From Bacteroides sp. (lineage in GTDB: Bacteria; Bacillota; Clostridia; Oscillospirales; Acutalibacteraceae): a DNA stretch of 64,000 bases. Numbering within the stretch: position 1 is the first letter of the stretch; every line of letters starts with the position of its first letter. Under the pieces are notes generated by a model. It saw nothing but the letters and a program-made list of their open reading frames with translations. It was not told the DNA's origin and searched no databases. Position numbers and translations under genes: made by a program. The DNA lies in NCBI GenBank assembly GCA_023665085.1, contig JAMPEQ010000001.1, positions 1 through 64,000 on the forward strand, written 5' to 3'. Below are positions 15,915-50,587 of this stretch, in pieces.

Positions 15915-16262
15915 ATGTTTAGTGCAATAATATCAGCTTTAAGTGCACACCTAATTTACTTTATTTTACACATTCAAAACACTTCAAGCTTTCCAAAACC
16001 ACTGTCGCCTAAAGAAGAGGAAGAACATCTAAAAAAAATGGAGCAGGGAGATAAAAATGCAAGAGCAATACTTATTGAACGTAATCTTAGACTTGTAAGT
16101 CATATTGTGAAAAAATACTATTCAAAAACCAATGATAACGATGATTTGATAAGCATAGGAACTATCGGACTGATTAAAGCTATCGACAGCTTTAAGTCCG
16201 ACAAAGGCATACGTCTCGCAACATACGCTTCACGATGTATAGAAAATGCTATACTAACATAA
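15915..16262 (+). CDS. sigK: SigK, 5' part of the split gene
   Basis: Encodes 111 residues of SigK, the late mother-cell sigma factor, followed by four element-derived codons (AILT) and a stop. The hydrophobic pro-sequence (MFSAIISALSAHLIYFILHI) precedes FPKPLSPKEE, then region 2 ([40 protein letters not shown]). GGTGATG precedes the ATG. The reading breaks in region 2.4 at the ATAGAAAATG repeat; the missing remainder is at 50228-50587. Alone it lacks region 4 and cannot be an active sigma factor. A CATATTAAT upstream loosely resembles a SigE -10 element, but no convincing -35 was seen. Confidence 0.93.
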   Translation: MFSAIISALSAHLIYFILHIQNTSSFPKPLSPKEEEEHLKKMEQGDKNARAILIERNLRLVSHIVKKYYSKTNDNDDLISIGTIGLIKAIDSFKSDKGIRLATYASRCIENAILT

Positions 16263-16846
16263 CAGCAACAATTTGCACTTTAATGCCGCAAACAGCGAGC
16301 ATTTTGCCTGAAATTGATAAATGGAGTGTGTATCAGTCATTACCTAACGCATATATCCTTCATAGAATTAAGAACGGCAAAGTTGAATACTCTCCCCTAT
16401 TTTGTGTTAAACTCAGGGTTAATAATTATAAGCATTATTCTTTCAATGCATTTAATGAGATTGATGATACAACTTTCGGCGGTGCAGTCAAAAAACAAAG
16501 AATTGAAAATCATATGACAATAAAGCAAGTCGCTGATATTGTTGGTATCAGTGTTGATACTCTAATGCGAATTGAAAAGAATAAATATGATTTACATAAT
16601 GCGGACAAGCTCAAAAAGTTATGTGACTTTTTAGCTTTAGACTCACAAAAAATCTGCTCACCCTATCAACTGTTCTTACTGAACAATCAAGGTGAGCAGA
16701 TTATAAAATTTAGAAAAGATAATAATTTAACTCAAAAGCAATTAGCTAATATGCTTGGTGTACATAGACAAGCTATCAGCAGATACGAAAACAACATCAA
16801 CCAAATGCCGTATGAATTATGGGTCAAATATAACAATTCAATTTGA
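16235..16846 (+). CDS. Protein with two helix-turn-helix (XRE) domains; start uncertain
   Basis: Up to 203 residues. Two XRE-type domains are visible: FGGAVKKQRIENHMTIKQVADIVGIS (about 90-140) and QIIKFRKDNNLTQKQLANMLGV (about 160-195). The first 85 residues are not recognised. The only ATG at the frame start lies within sigK codons and no Shine-Dalgarno site precedes it or the internal ATG at 16283. In the excised circle this frame joins the recombinase frame without a stop, giving a fusion of the full recombinase with 199 residues from here. It may be expressed mainly that way, or be a regulator or excision partner; all of this is inference. Confidence 0.6.
   Translation: MYRKCYTNITATICTLMPQTASILPEIDKWSVYQSLPNAYILHRIKNGKVEYSPLFCVKLRVNNYKHYSFNAFNEIDDTTFGGAVKKQRIENHMTIKQVADIVGISVDTLMRIEKNKYDLHNADKLKKLCDFLALDSQKICSPYQLFLLNNQGEQIIKFRKDNNLTQKQLANMLGVHRQAISRYENNINQMPYELWVKYNNSI
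16239..16248 (+). repeat. Left crossover site of the sigK element
   Basis: ATAGAAAATG, identical to 50228-50237 and in the same orientation. The bases outside differ on both sides (T/C here, G/A on the right), so the shared core is exactly 10 bp. Recombination between the two joins sigK codon by codon. Confidence 0.88.
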
Positions 16847-16867
16847 AAATCTCTTTATACAATAAAC

Positions 16868-17944
16868 TTATATCCAATATGAATATGATGTTTCGCCGTT
16901 ATTAATAAACACTTCAAGTGCTTTTTCATCACGGAGTATATGGACACTGTTTACAATTCCATTGTAGTACAAGTCATTAGTTTTTCCTGAATCGTGCATT
17001 ATAATTTTATCCTTATAAATTTCAATCAATTCGTCCTCACTGCTAAGCAGATGTTGAGCCTCTGCAACAGGAAACAAACGAATTGTTCCATTATCAATTT
17101 TTACCTCTCTAGGAATCGTCAATGCACCTGCAAATGGAAGTCCCGGCTCAGGTTTCTTTCCCCAATTATAGAACCATCCGATTAAAATTCTGCGTTCCTT
17201 ATTATCCTGAAAGGTCTGCGGTGCATAAAACTGCGGTCCGTTTTCAGGTGACCGAAAGGATTTTGGATAAAATTTATCGCCATCAAAATCGCCTATAACA
17301 AACTGCGTTTTGTTCATATCGGAGATCATCTTGCTGAACATCAATACATAACTATCTCCCATTTTAAAGAAATCAGGACATTCAAAAACCGCTCCGAAAT
17401 CCGCATTTTCATATAGAACTCCTATATAATTCCATTTCAGCAAATCATCAGATTTGTAAAGCAAAACTTTTCCGACTCCGTCTTTTCCCGAACCGACAAC
17501 CATATAATATTTTCCGTCGATAAAGGTTACTTTAGGATCTCTGAAATCTTTGCTGCCATCAGCGGGAGGAGTTATAATTATAGGATTACCCTCATATTTT
17601 ATAAAATTTATTCCGTCATTGCTCATTGCAACTGACTGTGTCTGACCGTATTTATCCGACACGGATGTATAGAACAGATACATAATTCCGTCTTTTTCAA
17701 CAGCACTGCCCGAAAAGCAACCACCGTCATTCTCATAACACATATCAGGCTTAAGTGCAATCGGCAATTCGTGCCAATGAATTAAATCATCACTGACGGC
17801 GTGTCCCCAATGCATTGGACCCCATTTAGGTTCTTTTGGATTATACTGAAAAAATGCGTGATATTTTCCTTTAAAATAAATCAATCCGTTTGGATCATTT
17901 ATCCAGCCGTGTTCAGGCTCAAAATGATATTTAAATCGTTTCAT
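16868..17944 (-). CDS. Glycoside hydrolase family 32 (fructosidase type), short
   Basis: A 358-residue cytoplasmic GH32 enzyme, the family of invertases, fructanases and beta-fructosidases. All three catalytic motifs are intact: nucleophile Asp17 in WINDPNG, the RDP triad at 135-137 and acid/base Glu188 in ECPDF. The five-bladed propeller is complete, but the C-terminal beta-sandwich is much shorter than in typical 450-500-residue relatives and ends abruptly in EVFINNGETSYSYWI. No signal peptide. It is the last gene of the long minus-strand operon, 5 bp after rhaD, with a poor ribosome site; no terminator is seen in the 21-bp gap to the HTH gene. Confidence 0.85.
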   Translation of the reverse strand: MKRFKYHFEPEHGWINDPNGLIYFKGKYHAFFQYNPKEPKWGPMHWGHAVSDDLIHWHELPIALKPDMCYENDGGCFSGSAVEKDGIMYLFYTSVSDKYGQTQSVAMSNDGINFIKYEGNPIIITPPADGSKDFRDPKVTFIDGKYYMVVGSGKDGVGKVLLYKSDDLLKWNYIGVLYENADFGAVFECPDFFKMGDSYVLMFSKMISDMNKTQFVIGDFDGDKFYPKSFRSPENGPQFYAPQTFQDNKERRILIGWFYNWGKKPEPGLPFAGALTIPREVKIDNGTIRLFPVAEAQHLLSSEDELIEIYKDKIIMHDSGKTNDLYYNGIVNSVHILRDEKALEVFINNGETSYSYWI

Positions 17945-17948: not shown

Positions 17949-18770
17949 TCAATCCATTAAATTCAAAAAATCTTTTCTGTATTCAACACCGAAGGCTTCG
18001 GCGAGGTGTTGCATATCCTTATCCTTGATAGTATTTACCCTCGGCAGATGTGCAGTGAGCATATAAATCTGTGCTGCTTTTTCAACAGTTTCAATAAGAC
18101 CGAAGGTTTCATCCATTGTTTTGCCTGCACCGTAAATACCGTGCATTCCCCAGATTACAAGACGAAATTCCTTCATCTTTTCTGCCGTTGCTTCGCCGAT
18201 TTCATTCGTTCCGCAAAGCATCCAAGGAAGAACACCGATACCGTCAGGAAATACAACAATACATTCTGTGCACATTTCCCAAAGCGTGTGGGTTATTTTC
18301 TTTTCGTCAAGCTCGTGAACATAGTTCATTGCAAGCGTATTTGTCGGATGTGAATGCATAACCACTCTGTTTTCAGGATCAACAGATAATCTTGCCATAT
18401 GGCTCATAAGGTGTGCAGGGAGCTCTGATGTAAACTTTCCTCCGTCCTTGTAGCCCCAGAGTAATTCTGCCGTTGTGCCGTCCTTTGCAATACGAATGAT
18501 ACCGAGATTATTTTCGGGATCATCAACAACATTCTTAAAATATTTTCCTGTTCCAGTCACAATAAATAGTTTGCCAATGAGCGGCGCTGCATCAAAACCT
18601 GTCGGTATTGTACGGATAACATTATTAAGATTGAGATACTCTGCAACCTCGTTTTCATCAAGCATATAGCTGATGTTACCGCCGTTTCTTTCGTCCCATC
18701 CAAGACGATACATATTGGCTGTTGTCTTTTTCATTTCTTCTACAAATGGTGCTGTTAATATATCCTTCAT
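17949..18770 (-). CDS. rhaD: Rhamnulose-1-phosphate aldolase
   Basis: A 273-residue class II (zinc) aldolase that splits L-rhamnulose-1-phosphate into dihydroxyacetone phosphate and L-lactaldehyde. Seen: the substrate loop WDERNGGNISY, metal histidines in VMHSHPTN, the late His in IWGMHGIYGAG. Its ATG overlaps the rhaA stop by 4 bp. Together with rhaA and rhaB it completes the phosphorylative rhamnose pathway; no lactaldehyde reductase or dehydrogenase is present in the window. Confidence 0.94.
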   Translation of the reverse strand: MKDILTAPFVEEMKKTTANMYRLGWDERNGGNISYMLDENEVAEYLNLNNVIRTIPTGFDAAPLIGKLFIVTGTGKYFKNVVDDPENNLGIIRIAKDGTTAELLWGYKDGGKFTSELPAHLMSHMARLSVDPENRVVMHSHPTNTLAMNYVHELDEKKITHTLWEMCTECIVVFPDGIGVLPWMLCGTNEIGEATAEKMKEFRLVIWGMHGIYGAGKTMDETFGLIETVEKAAQIYMLTAHLPRVNTIKDKDMQHLAEAFGVEYRKDFLNLMD

Positions 18771-20020
18771 CTTTTGCTTAAAATCTCCTGCTCATATCTT
18801 TTTACCTCTGCAAAAAATTCGGCAGGGGTATTTTCTCTTTCTAAATATTCATTCCACACATCACCAAACGGTGCAGTTTTGAGTTCTTCCTGTGCCACCA
18901 TAAGCTGTGTGAAATCTGAATTATCCTGCATATCTTTAAGTAAATTTTTTGGCTCTAAAAGTGCAAAAAGCAGAGCCTTTTGAATATTTCTTACACCTGT
19001 TACCCAAGCAGAAATACGGTTAATGCTTGCATCAAAATAGTCAAGTGCAATATTTACCCTGCCGTCAAGTCCGCCGCAACGCACAATCTCTTTTGCAATT
19101 TCCTTTGTTTCGTCATCAAACAAAACAACATGGTCACTGTCCCAACGAACGCCACGGGTAATATGCAGTGCAATTTCCGGAAAGAATGTGAGCAGTGCTG
19201 ATATTTTATCACTGACAACCTCTGTCGGATGGTAATGCCCGTTATCCATAAGCGGAATACATTTATCCTTATTCATTGCTGCATAACCGAGTGCAAACTC
19301 AGCAGAGCCGACTGTATACGCCTCAACACCTATTCCGAACACCTTACTCTCAACACAGGGCTTAACCTTGTTAAAACTATAAGACTCTGAAAGAATTTCA
19401 TCAATAGAATTACGATAACGCTCTCTCGGTCCGATTCTGTCAGCAGGAATATCCTTAAAGCCATCACCTGTCCAGATATTCATAACACAAGGCTCACCGA
19501 GTTCATTCGCAAGATAATTTGAAATTCTGATACAAGCCTTGCCGTGCTCAATCCAGAAATTTCTTGTTTCCTCATTTGGCGATGAAAGCGTTAAAGGATC
19601 GCATTTAGGATGCGAAAAGAATGTCGGATTAAAATCACAGCCGAGTCCTCTTGCTTTACAGAAATCCACCCATTTTTTGAAATGCTTAGGTTCAATCTTA
19701 TCTCTGTCAACCCAAGGATTTTCGTCATCAAAAATCGCATAGCTTGCGTGCAGGTTTAATTTCATCTTGCCGGGAACCAGTTTCAGCACCTCATCAATAT
19801 CTGCCATAAGCTCTTCGGGAGTTGATGCTCTACCCAGATAATTACCTGTTGTCTGAATACCACCTGTGAGCGGTTTTGTCGGGTCAGTATCAAAGCCCCT
19901 TACATCATCGCCCTGCCAGCAGTGGAGTGAAACAGAAACATTTTTTAGTGTGTCAATCGCCTTATCTGTATCAACACCATACTTTGCATAAATCTGCTTT
20001 GCATCATCATATCGTGACAT
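18767..20020 (-). CDS. rhaA: L-rhamnose isomerase
   Basis: A 417-residue cytoplasmic isomerase converting L-rhamnose to L-rhamnulose. Family hallmarks: SLHCWQGDDVRGFD near the N-terminus, LNLHASYAI, IWTGDGFKDIPADRIGPRERY and MDNGHYHPTE, VRWDSDHVV with metal ligands. GGAGA lies 7 bases before the ATG. The 78-bp gap from rhaB holds a pair of hairpins (20049-20086). Confidence 0.96.
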   Translation of the reverse strand: MSRYDDAKQIYAKYGVDTDKAIDTLKNVSVSLHCWQGDDVRGFDTDPTKPLTGGIQTTGNYLGRASTPEELMADIDEVLKLVPGKMKLNLHASYAIFDDENPWVDRDKIEPKHFKKWVDFCKARGLGCDFNPTFFSHPKCDPLTLSSPNEETRNFWIEHGKACIRISNYLANELGEPCVMNIWTGDGFKDIPADRIGPRERYRNSIDEILSESYSFNKVKPCVESKVFGIGVEAYTVGSAEFALGYAAMNKDKCIPLMDNGHYHPTEVVSDKISALLTFFPEIALHITRGVRWDSDHVVLFDDETKEIAKEIVRCGGLDGRVNIALDYFDASINRISAWVTGVRNIQKALLFALLEPKNLLKDMQDNSDFTQLMVAQEELKTAPFGDVWNEYLERENTPAEFFAEVKRYEQEILSKR

Positions 20021-20098: not shown

Positions 20099-21460
20099 TT
20101 AATTTATATTAAAAGAATTTCTAACTATAACTCTTGCCTGTTCAAGAGATATTTTTTTATGATACATAATCTGTGAAAGCAGATTACCTGTTGCAGTTGC
20201 CTCGCTTAAGCCTGTTACAACTCGTTTTCCTGTATATCGTGCAGTAAGTTCATTTAGATAAGTATCTTTACTGCCACCGCCGACAATAAATATATTATCA
20301 ATCTTTTTGCCTGTAAGTTTTTCAATTTCACAAATAGCATCTTTATATGAATTTGCAAGTGAATGATATATTGAATTGATAACAATATCTATTGGCATAC
20401 TTTCATTTTTCAGATAACTGCGAATTGCGTTAATCATATTATCAGGTGCAAGAAAATCAGGTGAATTTGTATCAATCAGTTCAAACTCACTGCTTTGCAT
20501 TGCCAGATGCATCATATCATCATAACTAAATTCATCATTAAGATTTTTCTTAACATTCTGAAAAAGCCACATTCCCATATAATTTTTGAGAAAACGGAAA
20601 CGATAGTCAATACCGCCTTCGTTTGCAAAATTCGCTTTTTGAGCGTCTGTATTAACAATAGGATTTAAACTTTCAACACCAATCAGCGACCACGTGCCTG
20701 ATGAAATATATACGCTGTTATTGTCTATAGGGCAGGCAGCAACTGCGCTTGCCGTATCGTGGCTTGGTGCAAAAATAACTGTGCTGTCAAAGCCCACACT
20801 TTCCTGAATTTCTTTTGTAAAATTTCCTATAACTGAACAAGGTGTATCAAGCTCGTTAAACAAATGCTTTGGCAAATCTAATTTTTCGATAATATCGTTA
20901 TCCCATAATTTTGTTTCGGCATTCACCATACCTGTTGTTGTGGCATTTGTATATTCATTTTTAATAACGCCTGTCAGTTTATATGACAGATATGCAGGTA
21001 TCATAAGAAAATGTTTTGCGTTATCAAGCTTGCCTGATATCTTATCGCAGTAAAGCTGATAAATGGTATTGAAATTCTGTTTCTGAATACCTGTTTTCAG
21101 ATATAATTCTTCAGCTGAAATAATGCTTTCAACCTTGCTGATAACATCATTTGTTCTGCTGTCACGATAGGATACGGCAGGCAGAATTTCCTGCCCGTTT
21201 TCGTCAAGCAAAACATAATCAACACCCCATGTGTCAATAGCAACGGTGCTTGGTATTTTATCAACTTCCTTGCATTTTGCAATACCCTTGATAACCTCGC
21301 TTACTAAATGCTTTATATCCCAGACAAATGTGCCGTTTTCATTTTTTATGTAATTTTCAAATCGGTGTATTTCTTCAAGCACTGATTTTTTATTCTCTAT
21401 ATATCCGAGAATATGCCGACCGCTTGATGCACCGATGTCTATTGCCAAATGATAGGTCAT
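20099..21460 (-). CDS. rhaB: Rhamnulokinase
   Basis: A 453-residue FGGY-family sugar kinase phosphorylating L-rhamnulose at O1. N-terminal ATPase fold AIDIGASSGRHILG; IDTWGVDYVLLD; SHDTASAVAA; IYISSGTWSLIG-type motif; C-terminal FIVGGGSKDTYLN and the adenine-site ATATGN. The gap between RhaB-type IDTWG and GTWSLIG matches rhamnulokinases rather than XylB. CGGAG precedes the ATG. Second gene in the sugar-catabolic part of the operon. Confidence 0.95.
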   Translation of the reverse strand: MTYHLAIDIGASSGRHILGYIENKKSVLEEIHRFENYIKNENGTFVWDIKHLVSEVIKGIAKCKEVDKIPSTVAIDTWGVDYVLLDENGQEILPAVSYRDSRTNDVISKVESIISAEELYLKTGIQKQNFNTIYQLYCDKISGKLDNAKHFLMIPAYLSYKLTGVIKNEYTNATTTGMVNAETKLWDNDIIEKLDLPKHLFNELDTPCSVIGNFTKEIQESVGFDSTVIFAPSHDTASAVAACPIDNNSVYISSGTWSLIGVESLNPIVNTDAQKANFANEGGIDYRFRFLKNYMGMWLFQNVKKNLNDEFSYDDMMHLAMQSSEFELIDTNSPDFLAPDNMINAIRSYLKNESMPIDIVINSIYHSLANSYKDAICEIEKLTGKKIDNIFIVGGGSKDTYLNELTARYTGKRVVTGLSEATATGNLLSQIMYHKKISLEQARVIVRNSFNIN

Positions 21461-21472: not shown

Positions 21473-22966
21473 TTAAAATTGAAATGGGAGTTCGTTTGGA
21501 TAGGGTAAAGACTGTGGCTGGTTATACGCAATATCCTTTATACCTAAATACCTGAATATTTCAGTCAGAATTTTGCCGTAATGACCGAAAGCAACAGCAC
21601 CGTGGTGCGGATAACGCTTTGCTATCAGCACATTTCTGTAAAATCTGCCCATTTCAGGAATGGCAAATACACCGATACCGCCAAAGGATTTTGTGCGAAC
21701 ATCAAGTATTTCACCCTCTGCGATATAGGAACGCAGAGTGCCCTCACTGTCGCACTGCAAACGATAGAATGTAATATCACCCGGAGCAATATCACCCTCA
21801 AGCGTACCACGGGAAATATCAGGCTCACTTCCTGCAGGCTCAAGCACTCGGTGCTGAATAAGCTGATATTTAACGGCTCTGTCTGCACACATTTTACAGC
21901 TTGGTGTGTTGCCGCAGTGGAAGCCCATAAATGTATCTGTCAGCTTATAATCTGTATTTGTCTTTATGTAATTATCGTACATATCCTTAGGTACGGAATT
22001 ATTGATATCAAGAATTGTTACTGCATCAAGGCTTGCACACGCACCGATAAATTCACTGAGTGCACCGTAAATATCAACCTCACAGGCAACAGGAATACCA
22101 CGGCTTGCAAGTCTTGAATTTACATAGCAAGGCTCAAAGCCGAACTGACTTGGGAATGCAGGCCAACACTTGTTTGCAAAGGCAACATATTTTTTGCTGC
22201 CCTTGTGCTGTTCTGCCCAGTCAAGCAGTGTAAGTTCATATTGCGCCATTCTTTCATTGAGGTCGGGATAATACTTGCCCTCTCCCATTTCCTCTGCCAT
22301 TTCTGCCATAAGTGCAGGGATTCTCGGATCACCCTTGTGTTCTTTATAGGATACAAGCAAATCAAGCTCGCTATTTTCCTCAATTTCAACACCGATTTCA
22401 TAGAGTCCCTTGATTGGCGCATTGCAGGCAAAGAAATCCTGCGGACGAGGACCAAAAGTGATGATTTTAAGATTTTTAACGCCGATAATGCCTCTCGCAA
22501 CAGGAACGAAATTTTTTATCATCACTGCAATTTCATCAGCAGTGCCGACAGGATAGTCAGGGATATATGCATTTAGATGACGCATACCGAGATTGTATGA
22601 GCAGTTAAGCATACCGCAGTAGGCATCACCTCTGCCGTTAATCAAATCATTTTCGCTTTCCTCAGCTGCTGCAACGAACATACAAGGTCCGTCAAAATTC
22701 TTTGCAATGAGTGTTTCAGGCGTTTCAGGACCGAAGTTGCCGAGAAAGACAACAAGTGCATTGCATTCAGCCTTGTTCACCTCATCAACAGCCTTGAGCA
22801 TATCAAGTTCATTTTCAACAGTGGTTTTACACTCAAAAATATCAATGCCGATTTTTGAGCATTCATTGACTACCACACCTCTTCTTTTTGTACTCAACTC
22901 GATTGGAAAGCAGTCACGGGATACGGCAATAATGCCGAGTTTAACCTCCGGAATATTGTTCATCAT
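21473..22966 (-). CDS. L-fucose/L-arabinose isomerase-family protein
   Basis: A 497-residue cytoplasmic ketol-isomerase of the FucI/AraA superfamily. Recognised from the N-terminal KLGIIAVSRDCFPIEL, the FLGNFGPETPETL region, FVAAAEES, a central ARGIIGVKNLKIITFGPRP and the C-terminal HHGAVAFGHYG with metal-binding histidines. It is not a classical FucI (about 590 residues) or AraA. Position directly before a XylB-like kinase suggests an aldose-to-ketose step for a pentose or deoxysugar released from the glycosides. The exact sugar cannot be read from sequence. Strong AAGGAGG precedes the ATG. Confidence 0.75.
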   Translation of the reverse strand: MMNNIPEVKLGIIAVSRDCFPIELSTKRRGVVVNECSKIGIDIFECKTTVENELDMLKAVDEVNKAECNALVVFLGNFGPETPETLIAKNFDGPCMFVAAAEESENDLINGRGDAYCGMLNCSYNLGMRHLNAYIPDYPVGTADEIAVMIKNFVPVARGIIGVKNLKIITFGPRPQDFFACNAPIKGLYEIGVEIEENSELDLLVSYKEHKGDPRIPALMAEMAEEMGEGKYYPDLNERMAQYELTLLDWAEQHKGSKKYVAFANKCWPAFPSQFGFEPCYVNSRLASRGIPVACEVDIYGALSEFIGACASLDAVTILDINNSVPKDMYDNYIKTNTDYKLTDTFMGFHCGNTPSCKMCADRAVKYQLIQHRVLEPAGSEPDISRGTLEGDIAPGDITFYRLQCDSEGTLRSYIAEGEILDVRTKSFGGIGVFAIPEMGRFYRNVLIAKRYPHHGAVAFGHYGKILTEIFRYLGIKDIAYNQPQSLPYPNELPFQF

Positions 22967-22968: not shown

Positions 22969-24399
22969 TTAGTCCTCCTTGTAAAAATCCTTTAATGCAG
23001 GATATAGCTTTTTGAATTTGTTATATTTTCTGCTGTATATTTCAGCAAGTGTGTCATTTGGTTTAACAGAGTAAAGAATATCATTTGATATATCTGTTTT
23101 GATACCATTTGCTTTTGCTGCAAGAATTGCACCGCCGAGGGCTGGACCCTCATTATTGATAATGCTGATTTCAATATCAAGAACATTTGCAAGAATCTGC
23201 ATCCATAGTCTGCTTTTCATACCGCCGCCGCATACAGTGGCTTTTTCTATTTTATTCGGTACTAAGCCAATACAATCCTTAATTGCAAATGATACACCCT
23301 CAAACAATGCCATTTGCAAATCGGCTCTTTTCGTATCGTGAGCAAGACCGATAAAAGCACCACGGACATCTGCATCATTATGCGGACAGCGTTCACCTGC
23401 AAGATACGGAATAAAGTAAATCTGATTACTTGCGTTGTCCGTATTTAACTCTGTGATATTTTTATCATAATCGTCTGTATCAAATATCTCTTCAACAAGC
23501 CATTTGTTTGCACTTGCAGCAGAAAGAATACAGCCCATTAAATGATATTTTCCATTTGCGTGGCAAAAGGAATGCAAGGCGGGATTCTCTGTTTTAACAT
23601 AACTATCCGTCGGAATAAATACCGTTCCGCTTGTACCGAGAGAAATATTACATTGTCCGTTCAAAATTGTATTTGTACCGATCGCAGCGGCAGCATTATC
23701 TCCCGCACCGGCACAGACTGTAATATTATCACCAAAGCCGAGTTCTGCTTTAACCTTACCTACAGGCTCATAGCTTTCATAAATCGTCGGCAGCATATCC
23801 TCCGTCATACCACAGATTTCAAGCATTTCTGCTGACCAGCATTTATTTTCAACATCAAACAAAAGCATACCCGATGCATCACTCACATCTGTTGAAAACA
23901 CACCTGTGAGCATATAGTTTATGTAATCTTTTGGCAGACAGATTTTTTTACACCGTGCAAAATTCTCAGGCTCATTTTCCTTAACCCAAAGTATTTTAGG
24001 TGCAGTAAGGCCTGCAAAGGCAATATTACCTGTTAAGGATTGTAATTTTTCTTTGCCAATCTCGTTATTAAGATAATCCGTCTGCTTGCCTGTTCTTGTA
24101 TCGTTCCAAAGGATTGCAGGGCGAATTACCTTGTCATTTTCATCAAGCATAACAAGTCCGTGCATCTGACCGCCGACTCCTATGCCTGCGACACTGCTTT
24201 TATCAACATCAGCCGTTATTTCATTCAGTCCGTCAAGAACGGCGTTCCACCAATCGAGCGGATTTTGTTCGCTCTTTCCGTCTGCTGAAAAATCAAGCGG
24301 ATATCCCTTTGAGATTGATTTTATTATATTCATTTTTTCATCAGTCAGAATTATTTTTACTGCCGATGTTCCGAGGTCTATGCCTATAAAATGTTTCAT
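22969..24399 (-). CDS. xylB: Xylulokinase-like sugar kinase
   Basis: A 476-residue FGGY kinase, XylB branch. Evidence: FIGIDLGTSAVKIILTD, the XylB signature GIGVGGQMHGLVMLDE, ILWNDTRTG, CAGAGDNAAAAIG, NISLGTSGTVF and ATVCGGGMKSRLW. D-xylulose is the family's usual substrate, but these kinases are promiscuous, and the partner isomerase is not a xylose isomerase, so the natural substrate is open. It is separated from the isomerase by 2 bp. Confidence 0.85.
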   Translation of the reverse strand: MKHFIGIDLGTSAVKIILTDEKMNIIKSISKGYPLDFSADGKSEQNPLDWWNAVLDGLNEITADVDKSSVAGIGVGGQMHGLVMLDENDKVIRPAILWNDTRTGKQTDYLNNEIGKEKLQSLTGNIAFAGLTAPKILWVKENEPENFARCKKICLPKDYINYMLTGVFSTDVSDASGMLLFDVENKCWSAEMLEICGMTEDMLPTIYESYEPVGKVKAELGFGDNITVCAGAGDNAAAAIGTNTILNGQCNISLGTSGTVFIPTDSYVKTENPALHSFCHANGKYHLMGCILSAASANKWLVEEIFDTDDYDKNITELNTDNASNQIYFIPYLAGERCPHNDADVRGAFIGLAHDTKRADLQMALFEGVSFAIKDCIGLVPNKIEKATVCGGGMKSRLWMQILANVLDIEISIINNEGPALGGAILAAKANGIKTDISNDILYSVKPNDTLAEIYSRKYNKFKKLYPALKDFYKED

Positions 24400-30074: not shown

Positions 30075-30076
30075 AA

Positions 30077-43383: not shown

Positions 43384-43399
43384 CGGAAGGTGCGATTTT

Positions 43400-44584
43400 A
43401 TGGATGCTTTAGCATATTGCTGTATGTTTTACGCTTCACACTATATTCCTGTTTCCTACTATGATGATAAAGGCTGTATACTGTCATACGGTTACGCAAA
43501 AGACTTAACAGAGCATAATGCCATTAATCAATTATTGATGAAAGAAAAAGAAAAGCCTGCTGTAATTATCGGACAGGATATGGGTACTTATGCAATTATA
43601 GAAGTAAAGGAAAATAAAGATCATATTATAATAGGACCGACATTTAGTTCAAATGTAACGGATACATCTGTTCGCACTTATATGACGATGAATTATATTC
43701 CAAGTGATAGATTTCAGACCGTAGCAGAATTTTTAAGAAGTATCCCACAATATTCATACAATCAGCTTTTGAATCTCGTCATCAGCATACACTACATAAT
43801 TAATGAGGAAATTCTGACTTTGTATGACTACACACCTTTTTATCAGAATGAATATGAAAAAAATATAGCTATTAAGCAAACAAACACCTCGTATAATGCA
43901 AGGGAGGAACAGTCTGCTCACGGAACATATTTGTTTGAACAGCAGCTGCTTGAATATGTAAAGGCAGGAAATCCTGCCGCTATGGAGGAATTTCTTTTAA
44001 TTGTTGCACAGGAAACTCCTTTAATTGAAGGAAAACTTGCTGATGATGAATTAAGGCAAGCAAAAAATCTGCTTAACGGTGCAGTAACTATTGTGGGAAA
44101 ATATGGTGCAATTCCGGGAGGAATGGATGTAGAGCAAGCATATCAGCTGATTGACATATACATTCAGGAATGTGAGCATTTGCAGGATATTAATGAAATA
44201 AAGAAACTGCAGTTTAATATGCTGATGGACTTTACAAGGCGTGTTGAAAGCGCACAATATTCAAATGAGCTTTCAAACGATGTATTCACTTGCATTCAAT
44301 TTATAAATTCACATATTAATGAGCCTATAGGAATAATGGATGTTGTTAACAGCACAAATAAAAGCCGTGCTTATATTACAAAAAAATTCAAGGAAGAAAT
44401 TGGAGAAAATATTGGTGAATATATTACAAACTGCAAGATGAAGGAAGCTAAAAATCTTTTGAAGCATACTGATAAAAGTTTAAGTGAAATCAGCAACTAT
44501 CTTTGCTTTTCCTCACAAGCCTACTTCCAAAATGTGTTCAAAAAGCAATTCGGAATCACACCGGCAAAATATCGGCAAATTTAA
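43400..44584 (+). CDS. AraC-family transcriptional regulator of the glycan locus
   Basis: A 394-residue regulator. The C-terminal 100 residues carry the two HTH motifs: IGIMDVVNSTNKSRAYITKKFKEE and KSLSEISNYLCFSSQAYFQNVFKKQFGITPAKYR. The N-terminal 280 residues are a sensor region without a clear cupin motif; the family of AraC proteins with N-terminal regions like this is diverse. GGAAGGTG precedes the ATG. It is divergent from the hydrolase gene with operator C in between, and the repeated half-sites 20 bp apart fit AraC-type binding. Activation of three promoters and autoregulation are inferred. Confidence 0.88.
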   Translation: MDALAYCCMFYASHYIPVSYYDDKGCILSYGYAKDLTEHNAINQLLMKEKEKPAVIIGQDMGTYAIIEVKENKDHIIIGPTFSSNVTDTSVRTYMTMNYIPSDRFQTVAEFLRSIPQYSYNQLLNLVISIHYIINEEILTLYDYTPFYQNEYEKNIAIKQTNTSYNAREEQSAHGTYLFEQQLLEYVKAGNPAAMEEFLLIVAQETPLIEGKLADDELRQAKNLLNGAVTIVGKYGAIPGGMDVEQAYQLIDIYIQECEHLQDINEIKKLQFNMLMDFTRRVESAQYSNELSNDVFTCIQFINSHINEPIGIMDVVNSTNKSRAYITKKFKEEIGENIGEYITNCKMKEAKNLLKHTDKSLSEISNYLCFSSQAYFQNVFKKQFGITPAKYRQI

Positions 44585-44924: not shown

Positions 44925-45875
44925 TTACCAACTCATTCCAAATCCATGATACTCATCATAATCATTGTCATAATCTTCATTGGTTATTTTCTGACCTTGA
45001 GCGATGAGCTTTTCTATTTCTTTTTTACTGTGGTGTGGCATCCATTTGCGTTTAGTGTTGTTTTGCATTTCTAAATCAAGCAGGTTGCCTATCAGATTGA
45101 ATAAATCATCTGATATAATTCCTGTCTGTGGTGTTTCATATTCCTGATACTCTTCTGAAATTATGCTGTCACAACCGCCGAGTTCAAAATATATTTCAAG
45201 ATTTTCTTTGAGAAATCTCTCATCAAATAGCTTATTATCACGGCACTTGTGCTTGTCATCTGTAGTGAAAGTAATATATTTTCTGTTCTCCTGCCAGTTA
45301 ACAGTTACACCTAATTGCTCAAGAATAAATATAAATTCTTCTTTACTGCTGCTGTTTTTCATAGCATACTCAAGTTTCTTTTTCAGCAATCTTTTCCATT
45401 TCGGCATATTGTATCTTGTGGCTTTTGCTTCAGTTAGAGTTAATCCATAGTCCTGACAAAGCTTGTTTGAATATTCTTTTGCCTGTATCATTTCATCTCT
45501 TGATTGATGAAATTTCTTGCCGTTTTCAAGGTTCACAGAGTTGAAAACAATATGGTTGTGTATATGATTTCTGTCAATATGAGTTGTAACTACCATTTGA
45601 TAATTGCCAAAGTATTCTGCAAATTTTAGTCCGATTTCGTGTGCAGTTTCAGGTGAAATGTTATCATCGGGACTGAACGACTGCACCACATGATAATATT
45701 GTCTGCCCTCTGTTTTGCCGAATTGTTTCTTCACTGCAATAAATTCTTGCATTGCATTTTCAGGAACACAGTTGATTCCACTGATTAGTTTTTGTTCAGT
45801 CTTTTCTTTTTTCATAATATATGGGAATATATTATTCATCGGACTGCCTGAGGTAACGAATTTAACGACTGCCAA
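44925..45875 (-). CDS. MobA/MobL-type relaxase (MOBP)
   Basis: A 316-residue relaxase that would nick the transfer origin and pilot single-stranded DNA. The metal-binding motif III is clear: THIDRNHIHNHIVFNSVN. A motif with candidate catalytic tyrosines (REGQYYHVVQSF-like, QYYHVVQS at about 60-67) precedes it. The TTG at 45875 has AAAGGAGGTG 8 bases upstream. It overlaps mobC by 40 bp. At 316 residues it is shorter than many relaxases; no type IV secretion genes are present, so mobilization would need a helper element. Confidence 0.88.
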   Translation of the reverse strand: MAVVKFVTSGSPMNNIFPYIMKKEKTEQKLISGINCVPENAMQEFIAVKKQFGKTEGRQYYHVVQSFSPDDNISPETAHEIGLKFAEYFGNYQMVVTTHIDRNHIHNHIVFNSVNLENGKKFHQSRDEMIQAKEYSNKLCQDYGLTLTEAKATRYNMPKWKRLLKKKLEYAMKNSSSKEEFIFILEQLGVTVNWQENRKYITFTTDDKHKCRDNKLFDERFLKENLEIYFELGGCDSIISEEYQEYETPQTGIISDDLFNLIGNLLDLEMQNNTKRKWMPHHSKKEIEKLIAQGQKITNEDYDNDYDEYHGFGMSW

Positions 45876-46147
45876 ATCTTTTGCACCTCCTTTTTTGTTT
45901 CAGTCAGGTCAACAGCATACACACCACCATTGACTGCTTTTGTAATTTGATTGAGATTGTTGCCTATCCTGCGGAGTTCAGTTGCAACATCTTTTACTCC
46001 ATCAATTACAATAATTTCTTTATCCAAAGCACAATCACGGAGGTACATACTGACGAGTCTGTAAGATGAAAGTGCTTTCGTTTCAATCAATTTTTTCTCT
46101 TCAGGTGTTACCCTGAAGGTTAATATTTCTGTTCTGTTTTTACTTAT
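45836..46147 (-). CDS. MobC-like mobilization protein, atypical start
   Basis: About 103 residues. The ribbon-helix-helix-like front NRTEILTFRVTPEEKKLIETKAL and the C-terminal TELRRIGNNLNQITKAVN identify a MobC/bacterial mobilization accessory protein that helps the relaxase at oriT. No ATG, GTG or TTG precedes the conserved front; the frame opens after a TAA and the best-placed codon is ATA (46147) 5 bases after AAAGGTG. Translation might use ATA, or the start codon has mutated and only the shorter TTG form (46090) is made. Overlaps the relaxase gene. Confidence 0.65.
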   Translation of the reverse strand: MSKNRTEILTFRVTPEEKKLIETKALSSYRLVSMYLRDCALDKEIIVIDGVKDVATELRRIGNNLNQITKAVNGGVYAVDLTETKKEVQKIWQSLNSLPQAVR

Positions 46148-46320: not shown

Positions 46321-47421
46321 TTATCCTATTTTTCTTTTATCTTCCCAGATTTTGCCTACAGGGTCGCAAGGGACGAAAGGAACGGATGTTTTGACACTCA
46401 CAATTTCTTCGTCACTTACGGCACTTGAGTCACTGTCAGAAAGATAAGAAACTTCAACAAGTCTTTGACCGTTACTTCTGTGACTTGCAAATTTAACACC
46501 CTTAACTTCAAGGTCGTACCTAAATTTATTCATTATCTGCTTTAATGATTTTGCAGTAAGATTGTAACTTGAATAATGGGTAAATTCATTTGCTAAATCA
46601 GTATTGCTTCCTTTGAAATATTTTTGTGATTTCATAAACTCAATGAAGTCAAACATTTCTTGTGGCATCGTCGGAACAGGATTCTCAAGACTGTCATTTA
46701 TCAAATCCCAAGTGCAGTTCTCTTTGTTGAACGATAATTGAAATTCTCTTTGCTCAATATCTCTGCCTGTGCAAAGCAGATTTGCTTTATTTTCATTTCG
46801 CTTATCTTTATCCAAAACAAATACAGCATCAACTGCACCACTGATACCTGTTGTACCAGATAACTTATTCAACGGATCACTGTCACCTTGTTTTCTAAGA
46901 TGATGAACCAGCAGAATAGAGACTGACATTTCTACGGCATATTGTTTTAGCTTTCCGATTTCATTGTAATCATTTGCATAAGATAATTCTGAACTTGAAT
47001 TCCTTATCATCTGAAATGTATCAATTACAATCAGCATTGTATCATTATGAGTAATAACGAAATTCTGTATCTGCTGAATCAAGCCTGTTTCAATACTTTC
47101 AGACTTAGTAGCAACATAGAGATTGTTTGGCACTCCATCAGTTATACAATTCAACCTGTTCTGAATTCTTGCAAGGCTATCTTCAAGGCAGAGATAGAGA
47201 ACCGTACCCTTTTCAGTCGGCAAATTCCAAACCGATTCACCTTTTGCAATTCGTACACACCAATCAAGCACCATCCACGATTTGCCAATCTTGGGCGCAC
47301 CACCAAGAATTGAAACACCTTGTGGTAATAATGACTGAATACAAAATTTTGATTTTGGAAACTGCATATCCATTAGAGTTTCACCATCAACTACTTCAAG
47401 TAACTTGATTTCTTTTTCCAT
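46321..47421 (-). CDS. RepA-like AAA ATPase (RecA fold helicase)
   Basis: A 366-residue protein of the AAA_25/RepA hexameric helicase family. Walker A is GGAPKIGKSW, Walker B TMLIVIDTF, with a sensor LVHHLRKQGD and SGAVDAVFVL. It resembles replicative helicases of plasmids and of mobilizable elements, so it may support replication of the excised circle. AGGAGG precedes the ATG. The 230 bp between it and mobC hold the candidate oriT. Confidence 0.82.
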   Translation of the reverse strand: MEKEIKLLEVVDGETLMDMQFPKSKFCIQSLLPQGVSILGGAPKIGKSWMVLDWCVRIAKGESVWNLPTEKGTVLYLCLEDSLARIQNRLNCITDGVPNNLYVATKSESIETGLIQQIQNFVITHNDTMLIVIDTFQMIRNSSSELSYANDYNEIGKLKQYAVEMSVSILLVHHLRKQGDSDPLNKLSGTTGISGAVDAVFVLDKDKRNENKANLLCTGRDIEQREFQLSFNKENCTWDLINDSLENPVPTMPQEMFDFIEFMKSQKYFKGSNTDLANEFTHYSSYNLTAKSLKQIMNKFRYDLEVKGVKFASHRSNGQRLVEVSYLSDSDSSAVSDEEIVSVKTSVPFVPCDPVGKIWEDKRKIG

Positions 47422-47553
47422 AAAGTTTACCTCCTTTCTCTAAACTAAATATATATCCTTGTTAAGAATTTCTATTTGTGTTATCATTTTAGCAGGAGTG
47501 AAACACTTAAACTATGCGTAAGTGAAAATTTGATTTTTTGAGAAAGTTTGATT

Positions 47554-48453
47554 ATGGACAGAAGTATTTATTCAAGCACAGGGTTATATATTAAATTTAG
47601 AAACAAGAATATTATTGAGAGAGTTGCAGTTGATAATCTGGATATTACTGAATTAGAACCTATTGACTACAGAAACGAGCTCATTGCACTTTATGATTAT
47701 GAGCTACCTAAGTTATGTGAGAATTATACTGTTGATTCGGCATACGATTTTGCAGAGGAAATTTTAGAAAAGAATATTGTTTTAGGCGTTCTGCTCAAGG
47801 CTGATATCAACAAATATCTTATTCACAGAAAATTGGCTGATATTTATTCACCTGAAGAGCTCAAAAGTAAATTAGAAACAGTAAGTATCCGAATGAAGCT
47901 GCTGCCATATATGAAAAACAAAGTGAACAAGCTTTTTATGTGTGTAATGCACAAGGATATACTTGCTGGTGTACTTGATATATCTATGCACGATGCAATT
48001 GAATACAAGGTTACCAAAACACGAAGCGGTGACGAGGTTTTATTCTTTGATAGTCCTGAATCATATTATGAATATTTGATTTTTACATTTTATTTGAGAG
48101 ATGAAACCGTTTGCGAATGTGAGCTTTGCAACAGGATATTTGTTCCAAAGACAAAAAAGAAAACCCTGTACTGTGACAGAGTTTTTAAGAACGGTAAGAC
48201 CTGCAAGCAGATCGGTCCTACGCAGAAATACAAGACAATTGCTGAGAATGATATCGTTCTAAAGACTTTTGAAAAAGAGAAGAACAAAATGTATAAGCGA
48301 ATGGAGAGAAACTACAACTTTGGTGAAACACCGAAATCTATTACCAATGATGATTACAATGTTTGGCTGAGCAATGCTGTTAATGCTAAGAATTTGTATC
48401 TGAATAATGAGTTATCACAAAATGAGGCTTTGGAAATAATAAAAACAAATTAA
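47554..48453 (+). CDS. DUF6076-like zinc-finger protein of mobile elements
   Basis: A 299-residue cytoplasmic protein. The centre-right has a cysteine array CECELCNRIF...LYCDR...GKTCKQIG resembling a zinc-binding CGNR-like knuckle, followed by a charged helical C-terminus. Similar proteins, annotated DUF6076, accompany integrative elements in Clostridia; function unknown. The ATG at 47554 is preferred to the TTG two codons earlier. A short palindrome CACTTA/TAAGTG sits at 47504-47524 in front of it. Confidence 0.65.
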   Translation: MDRSIYSSTGLYIKFRNKNIIERVAVDNLDITELEPIDYRNELIALYDYELPKLCENYTVDSAYDFAEEILEKNIVLGVLLKADINKYLIHRKLADIYSPEELKSKLETVSIRMKLLPYMKNKVNKLFMCVMHKDILAGVLDISMHDAIEYKVTKTRSGDEVLFFDSPESYYEYLIFTFYLRDETVCECELCNRIFVPKTKKKTLYCDRVFKNGKTCKQIGPTQKYKTIAENDIVLKTFEKEKNKMYKRMERNYNFGETPKSITNDDYNVWLSNAVNAKNLYLNNELSQNEALEIIKTN

Positions 48454-48467: not shown

Positions 48468-48495
48468 TTGACATATTATACTTATATGTTATATT
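48468..48495 (+). promoter_or_regulatory. SigA-type promoter of the recombinase
   Basis: A perfect TTGACA (48468-48473), a 16-base spacer and TATATT (48490-48495), about 33 bases before the ATG. It is a vegetative-type promoter; no SigE-type element was recognised in the same gap. Confidence 0.6.
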
Positions 48496-48528
48496 AGAAC
48501 AAGAATAATAACATAAAGAGGTATGGTT

Positions 48529-50238
48529 ATGGAAAAGGTATTTGCGATATATTCGAGGAAATCAAGGTTTACCGGCAAGGGTGAATCTGTCGAAAATCAG
48601 ATAGAGATGTGCCGTGAATATTTAAGAATACATTTTGGCAAAAAAGAGGCTGAAAAAGCTGTTATATACGAGGATGAAGGATTCAGCGGTAAGAACCTTG
48701 ACAGACCGCAATTCAAAGCGATGTTCGAGGATATTAAAAGTGGTAAAATATCTGCTGTACTCTGCTATCGTCTTGATCGTATCAGTCGTAACATTGGTGA
48801 CTTTGCCAACCTCATAACCGAACTGACCTCTATGGGTGTTGCGTTCATTTCTATCAAAGAGCAGTTTGACACCAACTCCCCTATGGGCAGGGCAATGATG
48901 TATATTGCATCTGTTTTTTCTCAGCTTGAGCGTGAAACGATAGCCGAGCGTATTCGTGATAATCTGCACGAGCTTTCAAAAACAGGCAGATGGCTTGGTG
49001 GTGTTACTCCTACAGGTTATTCTTCTGTCGGTGAAACCTCAATGAATATAAACGGTAAAACAAAAAAAGCATTTCACCTTGCAGTTAAAGAAGACGAAAT
49101 GCAGATTGTTAAGCTGATATTTGATTTATTTCTTGAACATAATTCGCTGACTGCCTGTGAAAGCTATTTGCTTGCACATAATTACAAGACTAAGAACGGC
49201 AGAGATTTTACACGTTTTTCTATCCGTGGTATTCTGACAAATCCTGTTTATATGATTGCCGACAGTGATGCTTTTGAATATTTTAAAAATTCAAATGTTG
49301 ATTTATATTCTGATGAAGTAGAATTTGACGGCACACACGGAATGATGGTATATAACCGCACTCTACAAGAACAGGGCAAAGCAACAAAAATAAAGCCTAT
49401 GGAGGAATGGATTGTATCTGTCGGAAAGCACCAAGGATTTATAAACGGCAAGGATTGGATTAAGGTTCAGAGTATGCTTGACAGAAACAAATCAAAATCC
49501 TATCGTAAACCCAAAAGCCACACTGCTCTGCTTTCAGGCATACTTGAATGCGAATGCGGTGAATTTATGCGTCCGCATATGACGACTCGTATGAACAAAG
49601 ACGGCGAATACACCTATTATTATTCCTGTAATATGAAGTTAAGGAGTAAAGGCAGTCGATGCAACAACAAAAACATCAACGGCAATGAGATTGACAAAGA
49701 AGTTATTGCTGCCGTTAAAGCACTCGCTGATAATGGTGATGATTATTTTGATTCACTAAAATCTGCATTATCCGAAAATAAAATCAAGGCTGAAAACATT
49801 AGCAACGAACAGTCAAGACTAACTGATAAAATTGAGAAAAAGGAAAAGGAAATCGAGGAACTTGTAAACAATCTTGCAACGTCAAGCGGAACAGGTGCTG
49901 AAAAATACATACTTAATAAAATCAATACATTAAGCGATGAGGTTGAAAAAATCAAATCACAAATGAACACACTTTCAAAGGAAAGTAAGAATGAACTGAA
50001 CTTAACGGAAAGCATTGACTTGATGAAGGATATGCTGAAATCATTTTCTGTTACAGTTGACAATATGACAATTGAACAGAAAAGACAGACGATCCGCACC
50101 TTTGTAAAAGAGATAATCTGGGACGGAGAGAACGCTCACATCGTATTCTTCGGCTCTGATTATGAATATCCGTTCCAAAAAGATGAAATGCTTGCTGATG
50201 GCGATAAATTGTATCCGCTTTGTGAGGATAGAAAATGA
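48529..50238 (+). CDS. Large serine recombinase of the sigK element
   Basis: A 569-residue large serine recombinase, SpoIVCA-like in role. The catalytic domain has YSRKSRF with nucleophile Ser12, then VENQIEMC, YEDEGFSGKNLDRP, CYRLDRISRN and SQLERETIAERI. The recombinase domain (GGVTPTGY) and a zinc ribbon (ECECGEFMRPH...YYYSCN...GSRCNN) follow, then a coiled coil (about 435-500). ATG at 48529 is chosen because AGAGG is 7 bases upstream. Its stop codon TGA overlaps the right crossover site; in the excised circle the TGA becomes TGC and the frame continues into the HTH ORF. It should excise the element and restore sigK. Confidence 0.93.
   Translation: MEKVFAIYSRKSRFTGKGESVENQIEMCREYLRIHFGKKEAEKAVIYEDEGFSGKNLDRPQFKAMFEDIKSGKISAVLCYRLDRISRNIGDFANLITELTSMGVAFISIKEQFDTNSPMGRAMMYIASVFSQLERETIAERIRDNLHELSKTGRWLGGVTPTGYSSVGETSMNINGKTKKAFHLAVKEDEMQIVKLIFDLFLEHNSLTACESYLLAHNYKTKNGRDFTRFSIRGILTNPVYMIADSDAFEYFKNSNVDLYSDEVEFDGTHGMMVYNRTLQEQGKATKIKPMEEWIVSVGKHQGFINGKDWIKVQSMLDRNKSKSYRKPKSHTALLSGILECECGEFMRPHMTTRMNKDGEYTYYYSCNMKLRSKGSRCNNKNINGNEIDKEVIAAVKALADNGDDYFDSLKSALSENKIKAENISNEQSRLTDKIEKKEKEIEELVNNLATSSGTGAEKYILNKINTLSDEVEKIKSQMNTLSKESKNELNLTESIDLMKDMLKSFSVTVDNMTIEQKRQTIRTFVKEIIWDGENAHIVFFGSDYEYPFQKDEMLADGDKLYPLCEDRK
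50228..50237 (+). repeat. Right crossover site of the sigK element
   Basis: ATAGAAAATG, the direct repeat of 16239-16248. Upstream flank TGTGAGG and the left site's downstream flank CTATACTAACA form the attP dyad. The recombinase stop codon (50236-50238) overlaps its last two bases. Confidence 0.88.
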
Positions 50239-50587
50239 AATTTTAATGCATTTTAGGTCATTGAAAAAAGGTGCAAATGACATTTATTTAAATGATACTC
50301 TGGAAATAGACAAAGACGGAAATCCCCTTACAATCGAAGACACTATAAGCAGCGACAGCGACCTTGCAGAAGAGCTGGAGTCCAAAATCAGATGGGAAAA
50401 AGTATCAAAGCTTATTGCATCGCTTAAGGATGAAAGAGAAAAAGAAATAATAATTCTTAGATATGGTTTAAATAATAAAAAGCCTCTGACGCAACGAGAG
50501 GTTGCGCAGAGGCTTAATATAAGCCGAAGCTATGTATCAAGAATCGAGAAAAAAGTATTAAAAGACATTAAGAATCAGGTTGAATAA
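50228..50587 (+). CDS. sigK: SigK, 3' part of the split gene
   Basis: Encodes the last 116 residues of SigK after the shared IEN: EILMHFRSLKKGANDIYLND, the EDTISSDSDLAEELESK linker and region 4 (REKEIIILRYGLNNKKPLTQREVAQRLNISRSYVSRIEKKVLKD). It has no ribosome site or start of its own in the interrupted state, although the frame stays open to an ATG at 50162 within the recombinase gene. After excision the gene totals 227 codons, close to SigK elsewhere. No clear terminator follows. Confidence 0.93.
   Translation: MENEILMHFRSLKKGANDIYLNDTLEIDKDGNPLTIEDTISSDSDLAEELESKIRWEKVSKLIASLKDEREKEIIILRYGLNNKKPLTQREVAQRLNISRSYVSRIEKKVLKDIKNQVE

Follow-up and report, generated by a model that had tools for sequence, protein, structure and literature searches.

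The window analysed here, a stretch of 64,000 nucleotides (positions 1 to 64,000 of contig JAMPEQ010000001.1, assembly GCA_023665085.1) deposited under Bacteroides sp. and placed by GTDB in the Acutalibacteraceae of the order Oscillospirales, carries a gene for the sporulation sigma factor SigK (15915..50587) into which a 34-kb element is inserted at codons 111/112. The 5′ part of sigK (15915..16248, + strand) comprises codons 1-111 and the first base of codon 112 and bears a Sigma70_r2 domain (8.7e-15), and the 3′ part (50237..50587, + strand) comprises codons 112-227 with the stop codon and bears a Sigma70_r4 domain (4.2e-14); joined, 15915-16248 and 50237-50587 give 227 codons in one frame. 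At the split lie two exact direct copies of ATAGAAAATG, the only two in the window, at 16239..16248 (the core of the left attachment site, attL) and 50228..50237 (the core of the right site, attR), both on the + strand and with a spacing of 33,989 bp. Such a pair is weak evidence by itself, as 0.45 copies are expected and at least two arise in 8 of 100 shuffles; the split is accepted because of the position of the repeats in the halves of sigK and because of the homologous junctions. The joined junction stretch runs unbroken, with small substitutions only, through the sigK loci of 30 relatives, and sigK of relatives is 63-89% identical to the 5′ part in the window. The region upstream of the gene, with a CATATTAAT box and GGTGATGAAA, is similar to that of relatives, and the attL junction with its left arm (GCTATACTAACATAACAGC or a close variant) is common to the elements of the genus. 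Judged by these repeats and junctions, the attachment site of the element is codons 109-112 of sigK, and precise excision between the direct repeats, as expected of a skin-type element, would restore the gene.

A first-pass annotation, made from the letters of the window, had proposed this split, the 10-bp repeats at 16239 and 50228 and the 227-codon join, and its coordinates and frame were reproduced. The second intact sigK that, by its own account, would have refuted it is absent from the organism's own genome (32 contigs, 99.94% complete), in which only the two halves match well and the next-best match is a sigE-like gene of the same window (8092-8712, 42% identity). Both spoIVA and spoIIID were found in this genome, above cut-offs.

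The last gene before the right repeat encodes, as had been recognised at first pass, a large serine recombinase (48523..50238, + strand) with Resolvase, Recombinase and Zn-ribbon domains, and a serine recombinase of its own at one end is a further mark of a skin-type element. The TGA stop codon of this gene (50236-50238) overlaps the right repeat and is made by the attR junction itself, such that the window holds an integrated-state form of the enzyme. A putative sigma-A-like promoter (TTGACA-16-TATATT; 48468..48495, + strand) precedes it and agrees with 11 of 12 consensus positions, a call that is a consensus match only, with 8 such sites in the stretch against 5.8 expected. At the opposite end lies a double helix-turn-helix (HTH) reading frame (16247..16846, + strand; HTH_3/HTH_19) without a conserved start codon, which is proposed below to be the C-terminal domain that the recombinase has when the element is circular.

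sigK elements in the genus and across Clostridia

In a census of 80 genomes of the genus (the own genome and 59 others, then 20 more), sigK is continuous across the site in 58, a few of these copies being partial or bearing an internal stop, and split at this point in 10 (G000, G015, G023, G024, G030, G034, G055, G056, G132 and G151). Two genomes (G031 and G041) hold a frameshifted or degraded sigK without insertion, two more, G139 and G147 (the latter at the end of a contig), hold only the 5′ half, and sigK was not found in 8 of the 80. A related recombinase stands directly before the sigK 3′ half in 9 of the 10 split genomes, with identities to the window enzyme of 87-94% (G023, G024, G055 and G056), about 67% (G030) and 46-47% (G015, G132 and G151). 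The first-pass annotation had called for a search for intact alleles in relatives, and had held that a split in all of them beside an unrelated recombinase would speak against its reading; the 58 continuous genes and nine related recombinases give a different picture.

The same comparisons bear upon whether sigK is dead, the element being a single insertion in a lineage that lost sporulation and now an ordinary chromosomal sugar locus. The damaged genes of G031 and G041 lend this some credence, and in G031 a small deletion with frameshift starts exactly at the attachment core, like the scar of an imprecise loss of an element. In the window, both halves of sigK are open and conserved, with nonsynonymous differences per site (pN) of 0.09-0.11 against synonymous differences (pS) of 0.71-0.80 to three carriers (G055, G024 and G056); the core repeats are exact, the recombinase is kept at full length and spoIVA and spoIIID are present, all of which renders a dead gene improbable. 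An assembly or binning artefact, with reads of the element misplaced in sigK, has only the slightest chance of being correct: many of the relatives are indeed fragmented assemblies, yet the same structure recurs on single contigs in independent assemblies (G055, G132, G151, [Clostridium] viride DSM 6836 and Sporomusa ovata). The recombinase pS between the window and G055, G024 and G056 is 0.48-0.53, below that of sigK, which fits an arrival of the element after the species split, and codon bias could contribute.

The interior of these elements varies within the genus. The element of G055 (about 29 kb; L039 2325-15601 with L040 1-10792) encodes WXG100 proteins, an FtsK/SpoIIIE-type ATPase and Ser/Thr kinases, which by their annotation are a type VII secretion-like set, together with a macro-domain protein and a relaxase/MobC pair similar to that of the window, the relaxase there being interrupted. 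That of G023 encodes BspA-type leucine-rich-repeat and HerA-like proteins, and that of G030 (L045 1772-5206) a surface-type protein of 1144 amino acids that combines a ubiquitin-family domain (PF00240, 7.8e-21) with an InlB-type repeat, along with a histidine kinase. In UBA7101 (G024) the recombinase and AAA/DUF6076 module occurs once more, within another gene.

Beyond the genus, a scan of genome contigs with an alignment of the recombinase confirmed 485 relatives, and the best 80 of these 485 were analysed. In 72 of these 80 clostridial loci no more than 300 nt separate the end of the recombinase gene from the sigK 3′ half, and by this count the window element is no isolated oddity. The record titles include Flavonifractor, Oscillibacter, Pseudoflavonifractor, Lacrimispora, Sporomusa ovata, [Clostridium] viride and a strain deposited as Faecalibacterium prausnitzii, and the elements with both halves on one contig measure about 7 to 28 kb. 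Among the other eight loci, three end at the core (L078, L101 and L113), one has a broken frame (L104), two are inverted (L075 and L077) and two lie elsewhere (L058 and L109). In the two inverted elements (also represented by L259/L260 and L270) the recombinase end abuts the sigK 5′ half, and the 3′ half of L259/L260 borders on the HTH; the arms of attP (the attachment site of the element itself) are near mirror images. Of the two placed elsewhere, one is a module inside the gene of a zinc-ribbon protein in UBA7101 (L058 2327-4763; L218) and the other a module near a tRNA-like sequence in Hominifimenecus microfluidus (L109 144-5636), the genome of which has a continuous sigK-like match; from their settings these are secondary attachment sites.

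The cargo of these more distant elements is similarly varied. The sigK element of [Clostridium] viride DSM 6836 (L250 2396-9347) holds msrA, panC and panD, each above cut-offs, and encodes a SafA-like LysM protein of the spore-coat type; that of UBA1701 (L258 3422-18209) holds electron-transfer-flavoprotein and acyl-CoA-dehydrogenase-like genes (below equivalog cut-offs) and a 3-oxoacyl synthase-like gene; and that of Oscillibacter ER4 encodes a symporter, an enoyl-CoA-hydratase-like protein, an IS1182 transposase, an alanine racemase and a MATE transporter. The first-pass annotation had recommended a search for similar cargo in known skin elements, and metabolic genes such as panC and panD do occur in other sigK elements. 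L073 and L078 have weak relaxase-like matches (about 30% identity) upstream of the recombinase, and weak MobC-like matches were found in G122 and G120. Taken on gene content and position, the window element belongs to a large skin-type family with swappable cargo at the sigK site.

The strain titled Faecalibacterium prausnitzii APC923/61-1 (L253-L254) has a 28-kb sigK element that encodes a cysteine desulfurase and several large proteins, the latter of which could form a candidate defence locus. The species name suggests a non-spore-former, yet this strain carries a sigK element.

A frame shared by the recombinase and the left-end HTH

Among 47 left ends examined (45 distinct, two ending within 70 nt), a homolog of the window HTH is found at 26. 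In all 26 it starts in the frame of the recombinase, and in 24 of these the frame, followed from the crossover, meets no stop for at least 147 codons; over the whole set of 47, at least 150 codons are open in the recombinase frame at 23 left ends and in the other two frames at none. On the right side, 68 of 72 loci have no stop in the recombinase frame up to and across the attR crossover, always the one frame, and 51 of the 68 stop at a junction-made TGA composed of the T of the sigK AAT codon (Asn111) and the GA of the Glu112 codon, the other 17 reading on past the junction. When the two ends are joined into a virtual circle, the recombinase frame continues across attP into coding sequence as a single frame, with 164-216 further codons in 22 of 38 elements (199 in the window); many of the 22 are related, which makes for fewer than 22 independent events. 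Since both ends share one frame and the circle join is open, attP appears to lie inside a recombinase-HTH gene from which integration would remove the HTH tail.

The HTH is, by its pattern of substitutions, under purifying selection. The ratio of nonsynonymous to synonymous substitution rates (dN/dS) is 0.11-0.20 between the window and four copies of the genus and 0.09-0.26 for the HTH body in three of four groups, and an alignment of 19 copies reveals a conserved N-terminal segment and the HTH units. Selection on a frame complete in the circle only suggests either that circles go on to insert again, the elements being truly mobile, or that the integrated element makes some use of the HTH piece.

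The principal alternative is an ordinary skin-type element with passenger genes that excises in the manner of the C. difficile element. Its relaxase would be vestigial, and its HTH would come from a gene of its own beside attP, for a regulator or an excision factor, made in the mother cell by read-through from the sigK promoter. The HTH, where present, is indeed sense-oriented directly after the sigK 5′ part (26 of the 47 left ends), behind an upstream region that resembles that of relatives, and skinCd, the element of Clostridioides difficile, combines a recombinase gene under sigma-A with a mother-cell directionality factor, according to the excerpted account of it (PMC5025042). A phage-like contig of IMG/VR (L176 10001-12236) likewise encodes a similar recombinase, and behind it stands a separate double-HTH gene with an ATG of its own, possibly the ancestral arrangement. 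A separate gene, however, is difficult to reconcile with the lack of a conserved start codon, several left ends having no ATG, GTG or TTG ahead of the conserved HTH part, and it would need neither the recombinase frame that all 26 copies share nor the long opening from the crossover that 24 of them display. It is considered unlikely on these grounds, if worth serious attention, and an attP inside the recombinase-HTH gene is preferred.

A ribosomal frameshift from sigK into the HTH was also considered and set aside, as the recombinase-HTH frame explains the missing start codon without a slippery site and as the HTH frame has a stop just upstream of the core in many elements.

Cargo and mobilization genes

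The cargo of the window element, annotated with Pfam and NCBIfam profiles, spans 16868-44584 and consists of about 28 kb of genes for rhamnoside and glycoside utilization, in agreement with the first-pass annotation. Its genes lie on the − strand with the exception of the last. The row next to the left end encodes a GH32-like glycosidase (16868..17944; Glyco_hydro_32N 6.2e-95); a class II aldolase (17949..18770; Aldolase_II 3.9e-26) that, judged by its neighbours, is probably the rhamnulose-1-phosphate aldolase; the L-rhamnose isomerase RhaA (18767..20020; RhaA 5.7e-171, with the NCBIfam equivalog NF002203 above its cut-off); a rhamnulokinase-like FGGY kinase (20099..21460; TIGR02627 1.6e-147, at 491.7 bits just under the cut-off of 527.95); an L-fucose-isomerase-family protein (21473..22966; Fucose_iso_C 2.1e-27); and a XylB-like FGGY kinase of the xylulokinase type (22969..24399; TIGR01312 above cut-off). 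A series of glycosidases surrounds the transporter: a GH1 glycosidase (24414..25748), a GH78 α-L-rhamnosidase (25761..28346; Bac_rhamnosid6H 1.5e-107 with companion domains), an MFS_2 sugar transporter (28365..30080), a GH43 enzyme (30077..31483), an apiosidase-like glycosidase (31480..33219; PF13204/DUF5605/DUF5060), and GH3 (33216..35684) and GH2 (35681..38023) enzymes, those given without a profile score being named from Pfam matches. Beyond these lie a large repetitive protein (38202..41219; weak CARDB match, 6e-06, and internal repeats) that is probably a surface protein, a predicted lipoprotein (41505..42272; a lipobox-like LAAC near its N-terminus and no Pfam match), an esterase-like α/β hydrolase (42301..43359; Pfam) and, on the + strand, an AraC-type regulator (43400..44584; HTH_18 2.8e-18), of which the cargo is the presumed target. 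A 41-nt repeat occurs upstream of the GH2-led gene row (38077..38117), upstream of the surface-protein gene (41376..41416; family D3, the first two copies being 80% identical) and in the gap between the esterase and AraC genes (43344..43384), and these three copies plausibly form a candidate operator set, possibly for the AraC-type regulator. One contig of genome G008, in which sigK is intact, holds DNA 90-91% identical to several of the cargo genes (L326 398-16645, C11), and the first 18 kb of that contig contain nine open reading frames (ORFs) of at least 150 amino acids, several matching cargo genes in length.

The segment between cargo and recombinase had been missed at first pass, as had the in-frame ends of the element. 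It encodes a MobP-like relaxase with a MobA/VirD2 nuclease domain (44925..45875, − strand; PF03432 1.5e-41, TraI/MobA(P) 2.7e-15 below cut-off), of which the sigK element of G055 holds a 76% identical copy; a MobC/NikA-like accessory protein (45836..46090, − strand) that overlaps the relaxase start; a RepA/DnaB-like ATPase of the AAA_25 family (46321..47421, − strand), 90% identical to a copy beside the second element in UBA7101; and a DUF6076 protein adjoining the recombinase (47548..48453, + strand), with copies 78% identical in UBA7101. The accessory protein itself matches mobilization families weakly, and its name rests on an 81% identical ORF of G055 that matches a NikA-like profile (3.8e-23) and MobC. 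No conjugation apparatus was found among the annotated genes of the element. Ten of its proteins other than carbohydrate-active enzymes were compared with PHROGs and returned integrase, regulator, replication-type ATPase and esterase matches; phage structural or packaging genes were not found among these ten, the only structural labels being two weak matches (terminase small subunit on the HTH, 6.5e-06, and baseplate spike on the recombinase, 3.1e-07). By this gene content the element is an island with a mobilization module and no prophage.

Integrative mobilizable elements combine a site-specific recombinase with a relaxase and are mobilized without a conjugation apparatus of their own. The window element resembles them in its site-specific recombinase, relaxase and MobC-like protein and differs in its attachment site, a developmental sigma gene, without the repair of which late sporulation cannot proceed. 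From the relaxase, the MobC-like protein and the AAA ATPase, the element is probably mobilizable, and is probably to be classed as an integrative mobilizable element.

Excision, known systems and a proposed mechanism

Contig ends in relatives are informative about excision. In the assembly of the Lacrimispora defluvii isolate PI-S10-B5A (G785, L113), the contig with the sigK 5′ half ends in ...GAGAATGA (also given as ...GTGGAGAATGA) and the contig with the 3′ half begins with AATGAGATCC (the two being L346/L347), and a contig of 7,842 bp is exactly the element, from AATGATATAC to ...AGCAAATGA (also given as ...CTAGCAAATGA), such that four contig ends meet at one 5-bp core. Because an assembler leaves such breaks when reads support several joins, they suggest that integrated and excised forms coexist. 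The two sigK contig ends of G034 (the end of L049 and the start of L050) also meet at the core, with AAATG in common, and a related recombinase was not found in that assembly; in G111, sigK was assembled whole and the recombinase contig ends in ...AGCAAACGA, matching the AACGA of that sigK. The breaks in G034 suggest a mix of empty and occupied sites in the sample. Both G034 and G111 may be mixtures of strains, a less likely explanation for an isolate. The contig ends of the three relatives speak for coexisting forms and do not show in which cell type these arise.

The published elements closest to that of the window are described here as far as partial texts of the sources extend. Like skinCd, with its recombinase CD1231 and directionality factor CD1234 (PMC5025042), the window element has a large serine recombinase set directly before the sigK 3′ part, a sigma-A-type recombinase promoter (putative in the window) and short core repeats at its ends. 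Unlike skinCd, which is prophage-like and 14.6 kb in length (PMC10745906), it measures 34 kb and carries a relaxase and glycoside genes. The excerpted source makes no mention of a recombinase-HTH frame for skinCd and notes that directionality factors share little similarity (PMC5025042). The first-pass annotation had described the known skin elements as phage-like, which does not hold for all elements in late sporulation genes: island IV in sigK of Bacillus cereus bv. anthracis and gin in gerE both lack phage genes and are excised in sporulation (PMC10745906, PMC5595907), and like the window element they are non-phage islands in late sporulation genes. The absence of phage genes is therefore not new. 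The cargo of island IV and gin is restriction-modification or mostly of unknown function, neither mobilization nor sugar cargo being described in the available passages; the recombinase of island IV is assumed to lie adjacent to the sigK 5′ part, and gin has three recombinases (PMC10745906, PMC5595907). By the features tested, the window element belongs with the skin-type sigK elements.

Precedents for an attachment site within the recombinase gene come from other quarters. The archaeal SSV-type 'suicidal' tyrosine integrases have attP in the integrase gene, which is split upon integration, and were described as exclusive to archaea in the portion of the source available (PMC8371274). The archaeal enzyme is a tyrosine integrase that the split inactivates, whereas that of the window is a bacterial serine recombinase of which the catalytic part remains whole and only the HTH tail would be lost. 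In the myxophage Mx8, attP lies inside int, and upon integration the enzyme acquires a new 3′ end and a changed specificity (PMC6070905). The Mx8 case differs from that of the window in that it concerns a phage integrase altered at its 3′ end only, and a target that is no developmental gene. The Mx8 integrase is of the tyrosine family, and some mycobacteriophages follow a similar logic with an attachment site inside the repressor gene. In the open-licence literature, searched by titles and the beginnings of abstracts, nothing was found on sigK elements in Oscillospirales or with sugar cargo, nor on a serine recombinase with attP inside its gene. A sugar locus, a relaxase and interchangeable cargo in sigK elements are thus not met in that literature, and a serine recombinase with an HTH tail that it loses on insertion would add a new variant to the known kinds.

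The whole is best explained by a skin-type, probably mobilizable integrative element in sigK with a recombinase-HTH gene in its circular form, a reading to which a probability of roughly 0.8 is assigned. The element would stay integrated in vegetative cells and spores, where its cargo would be a working locus for sugar use. During sporulation, the recombinase and a directionality factor would excise a circle in the mother cell and restore sigK, the cargo being lost only with the dying cell; this limitation of excision to the mother cell follows by analogy with known skin elements. The relaxase could act on the same circle, which would then pass into another cell with a conjugative element as helper. 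The circle would encode a recombinase with a double-HTH tail of about 200 amino acids, which may mark the circular state, for instance through a bias towards integration or through repression of its own gene; an enzyme without the tail would signal that the element is integrated. Integration leaves the catalytic part whole, as is needed by an element that must excise. Excision in this strain, like the intact fusion and its function, is what we infer.

Several observations weigh against this reading. For the genome of the window, represented by an assembly and not by reads, no excised form, joined sigK or circle was found, and no directionality factor was identified, no search having been aimed at one. 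The contig ends at the core in relatives could also reflect mixtures of strains, less likely in an isolate, or the behaviour of the assembler, and the L. defluvii element comes from a branch without the HTH and therefore supports excision in the family and not the tail switch. A close relaxase is present in only 2 of 21 sigK elements compared (the window included, and several of them incomplete); in the other of the two, that of G055, the HTH frame is present with a stop right after the crossover. In all, 16 of the 38 virtual joins have no long continuous frame, 15 of them with an early stop or no HTH and one (G127) running off its contig after 25 codons. The fourth HTH group has a dN/dS of 0.43-0.46, on few changes, and the first 25 codons after the crossover are without amino-acid constraint, in the manner of a linker. 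The recombinase genes of G023 and G030 (pS 0.68 and 0.78) are nearly as diverged as their sigK (0.79 in both), so that recent transfer is not general. A natural continuous recombinase-HTH ORF was not found in 395 genomes of the order, of which 24 matched a fused query at E <= 1e-170 and none past the crossover region; nor was it found in viral contigs, among the plasmid and phage matches listed (two plasmid records in which one place covers at least 80% of the fused query fell outside the plasmid matches listed and were not inspected) or in the eight recombinase loci not followed by a sigK 3′ half. A natural attP was likewise not found by a pattern search allowing one mismatch in 394 genomes of the order, the 18 matching genomes comprising 11 attR-like matches and 7 others with no recombinase or HTH nearby. 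Circles are expected to be rare in assemblies.

A broader proposal, for and against which the balance is presently even, is that clostridial sigK elements possess a state-sensing recombinase, in which loss of the tail, usually through the stop codon that the Asn-Glu codons of sigK provide, would switch the enzyme between its integration and excision forms, and that sigK would serve across Clostridia as a landing pad for cargo islands that the germ line keeps and that are shed with the mother cell alone. The prevailing view of skin elements has mainly been that of decayed prophages sitting in sigK, and the direction of recombination is usually controlled by separate directionality factors. Here the sigK site houses a large family of elements, the ends of which can be recognised and the cargo of which is exchangeable, including genes for plant-glycoside use, vitamin synthesis and type VII secretion-like functions; at least one of the elements has mobilization genes. 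The question of why sigK is chosen becomes testable, as a site cut only in a doomed cell would cost the element and its cargo nothing. The loss of the HTH tail, if true, would constitute a self-recording switch for the direction of recombination in the serine family, one that may be useful in genome engineering.

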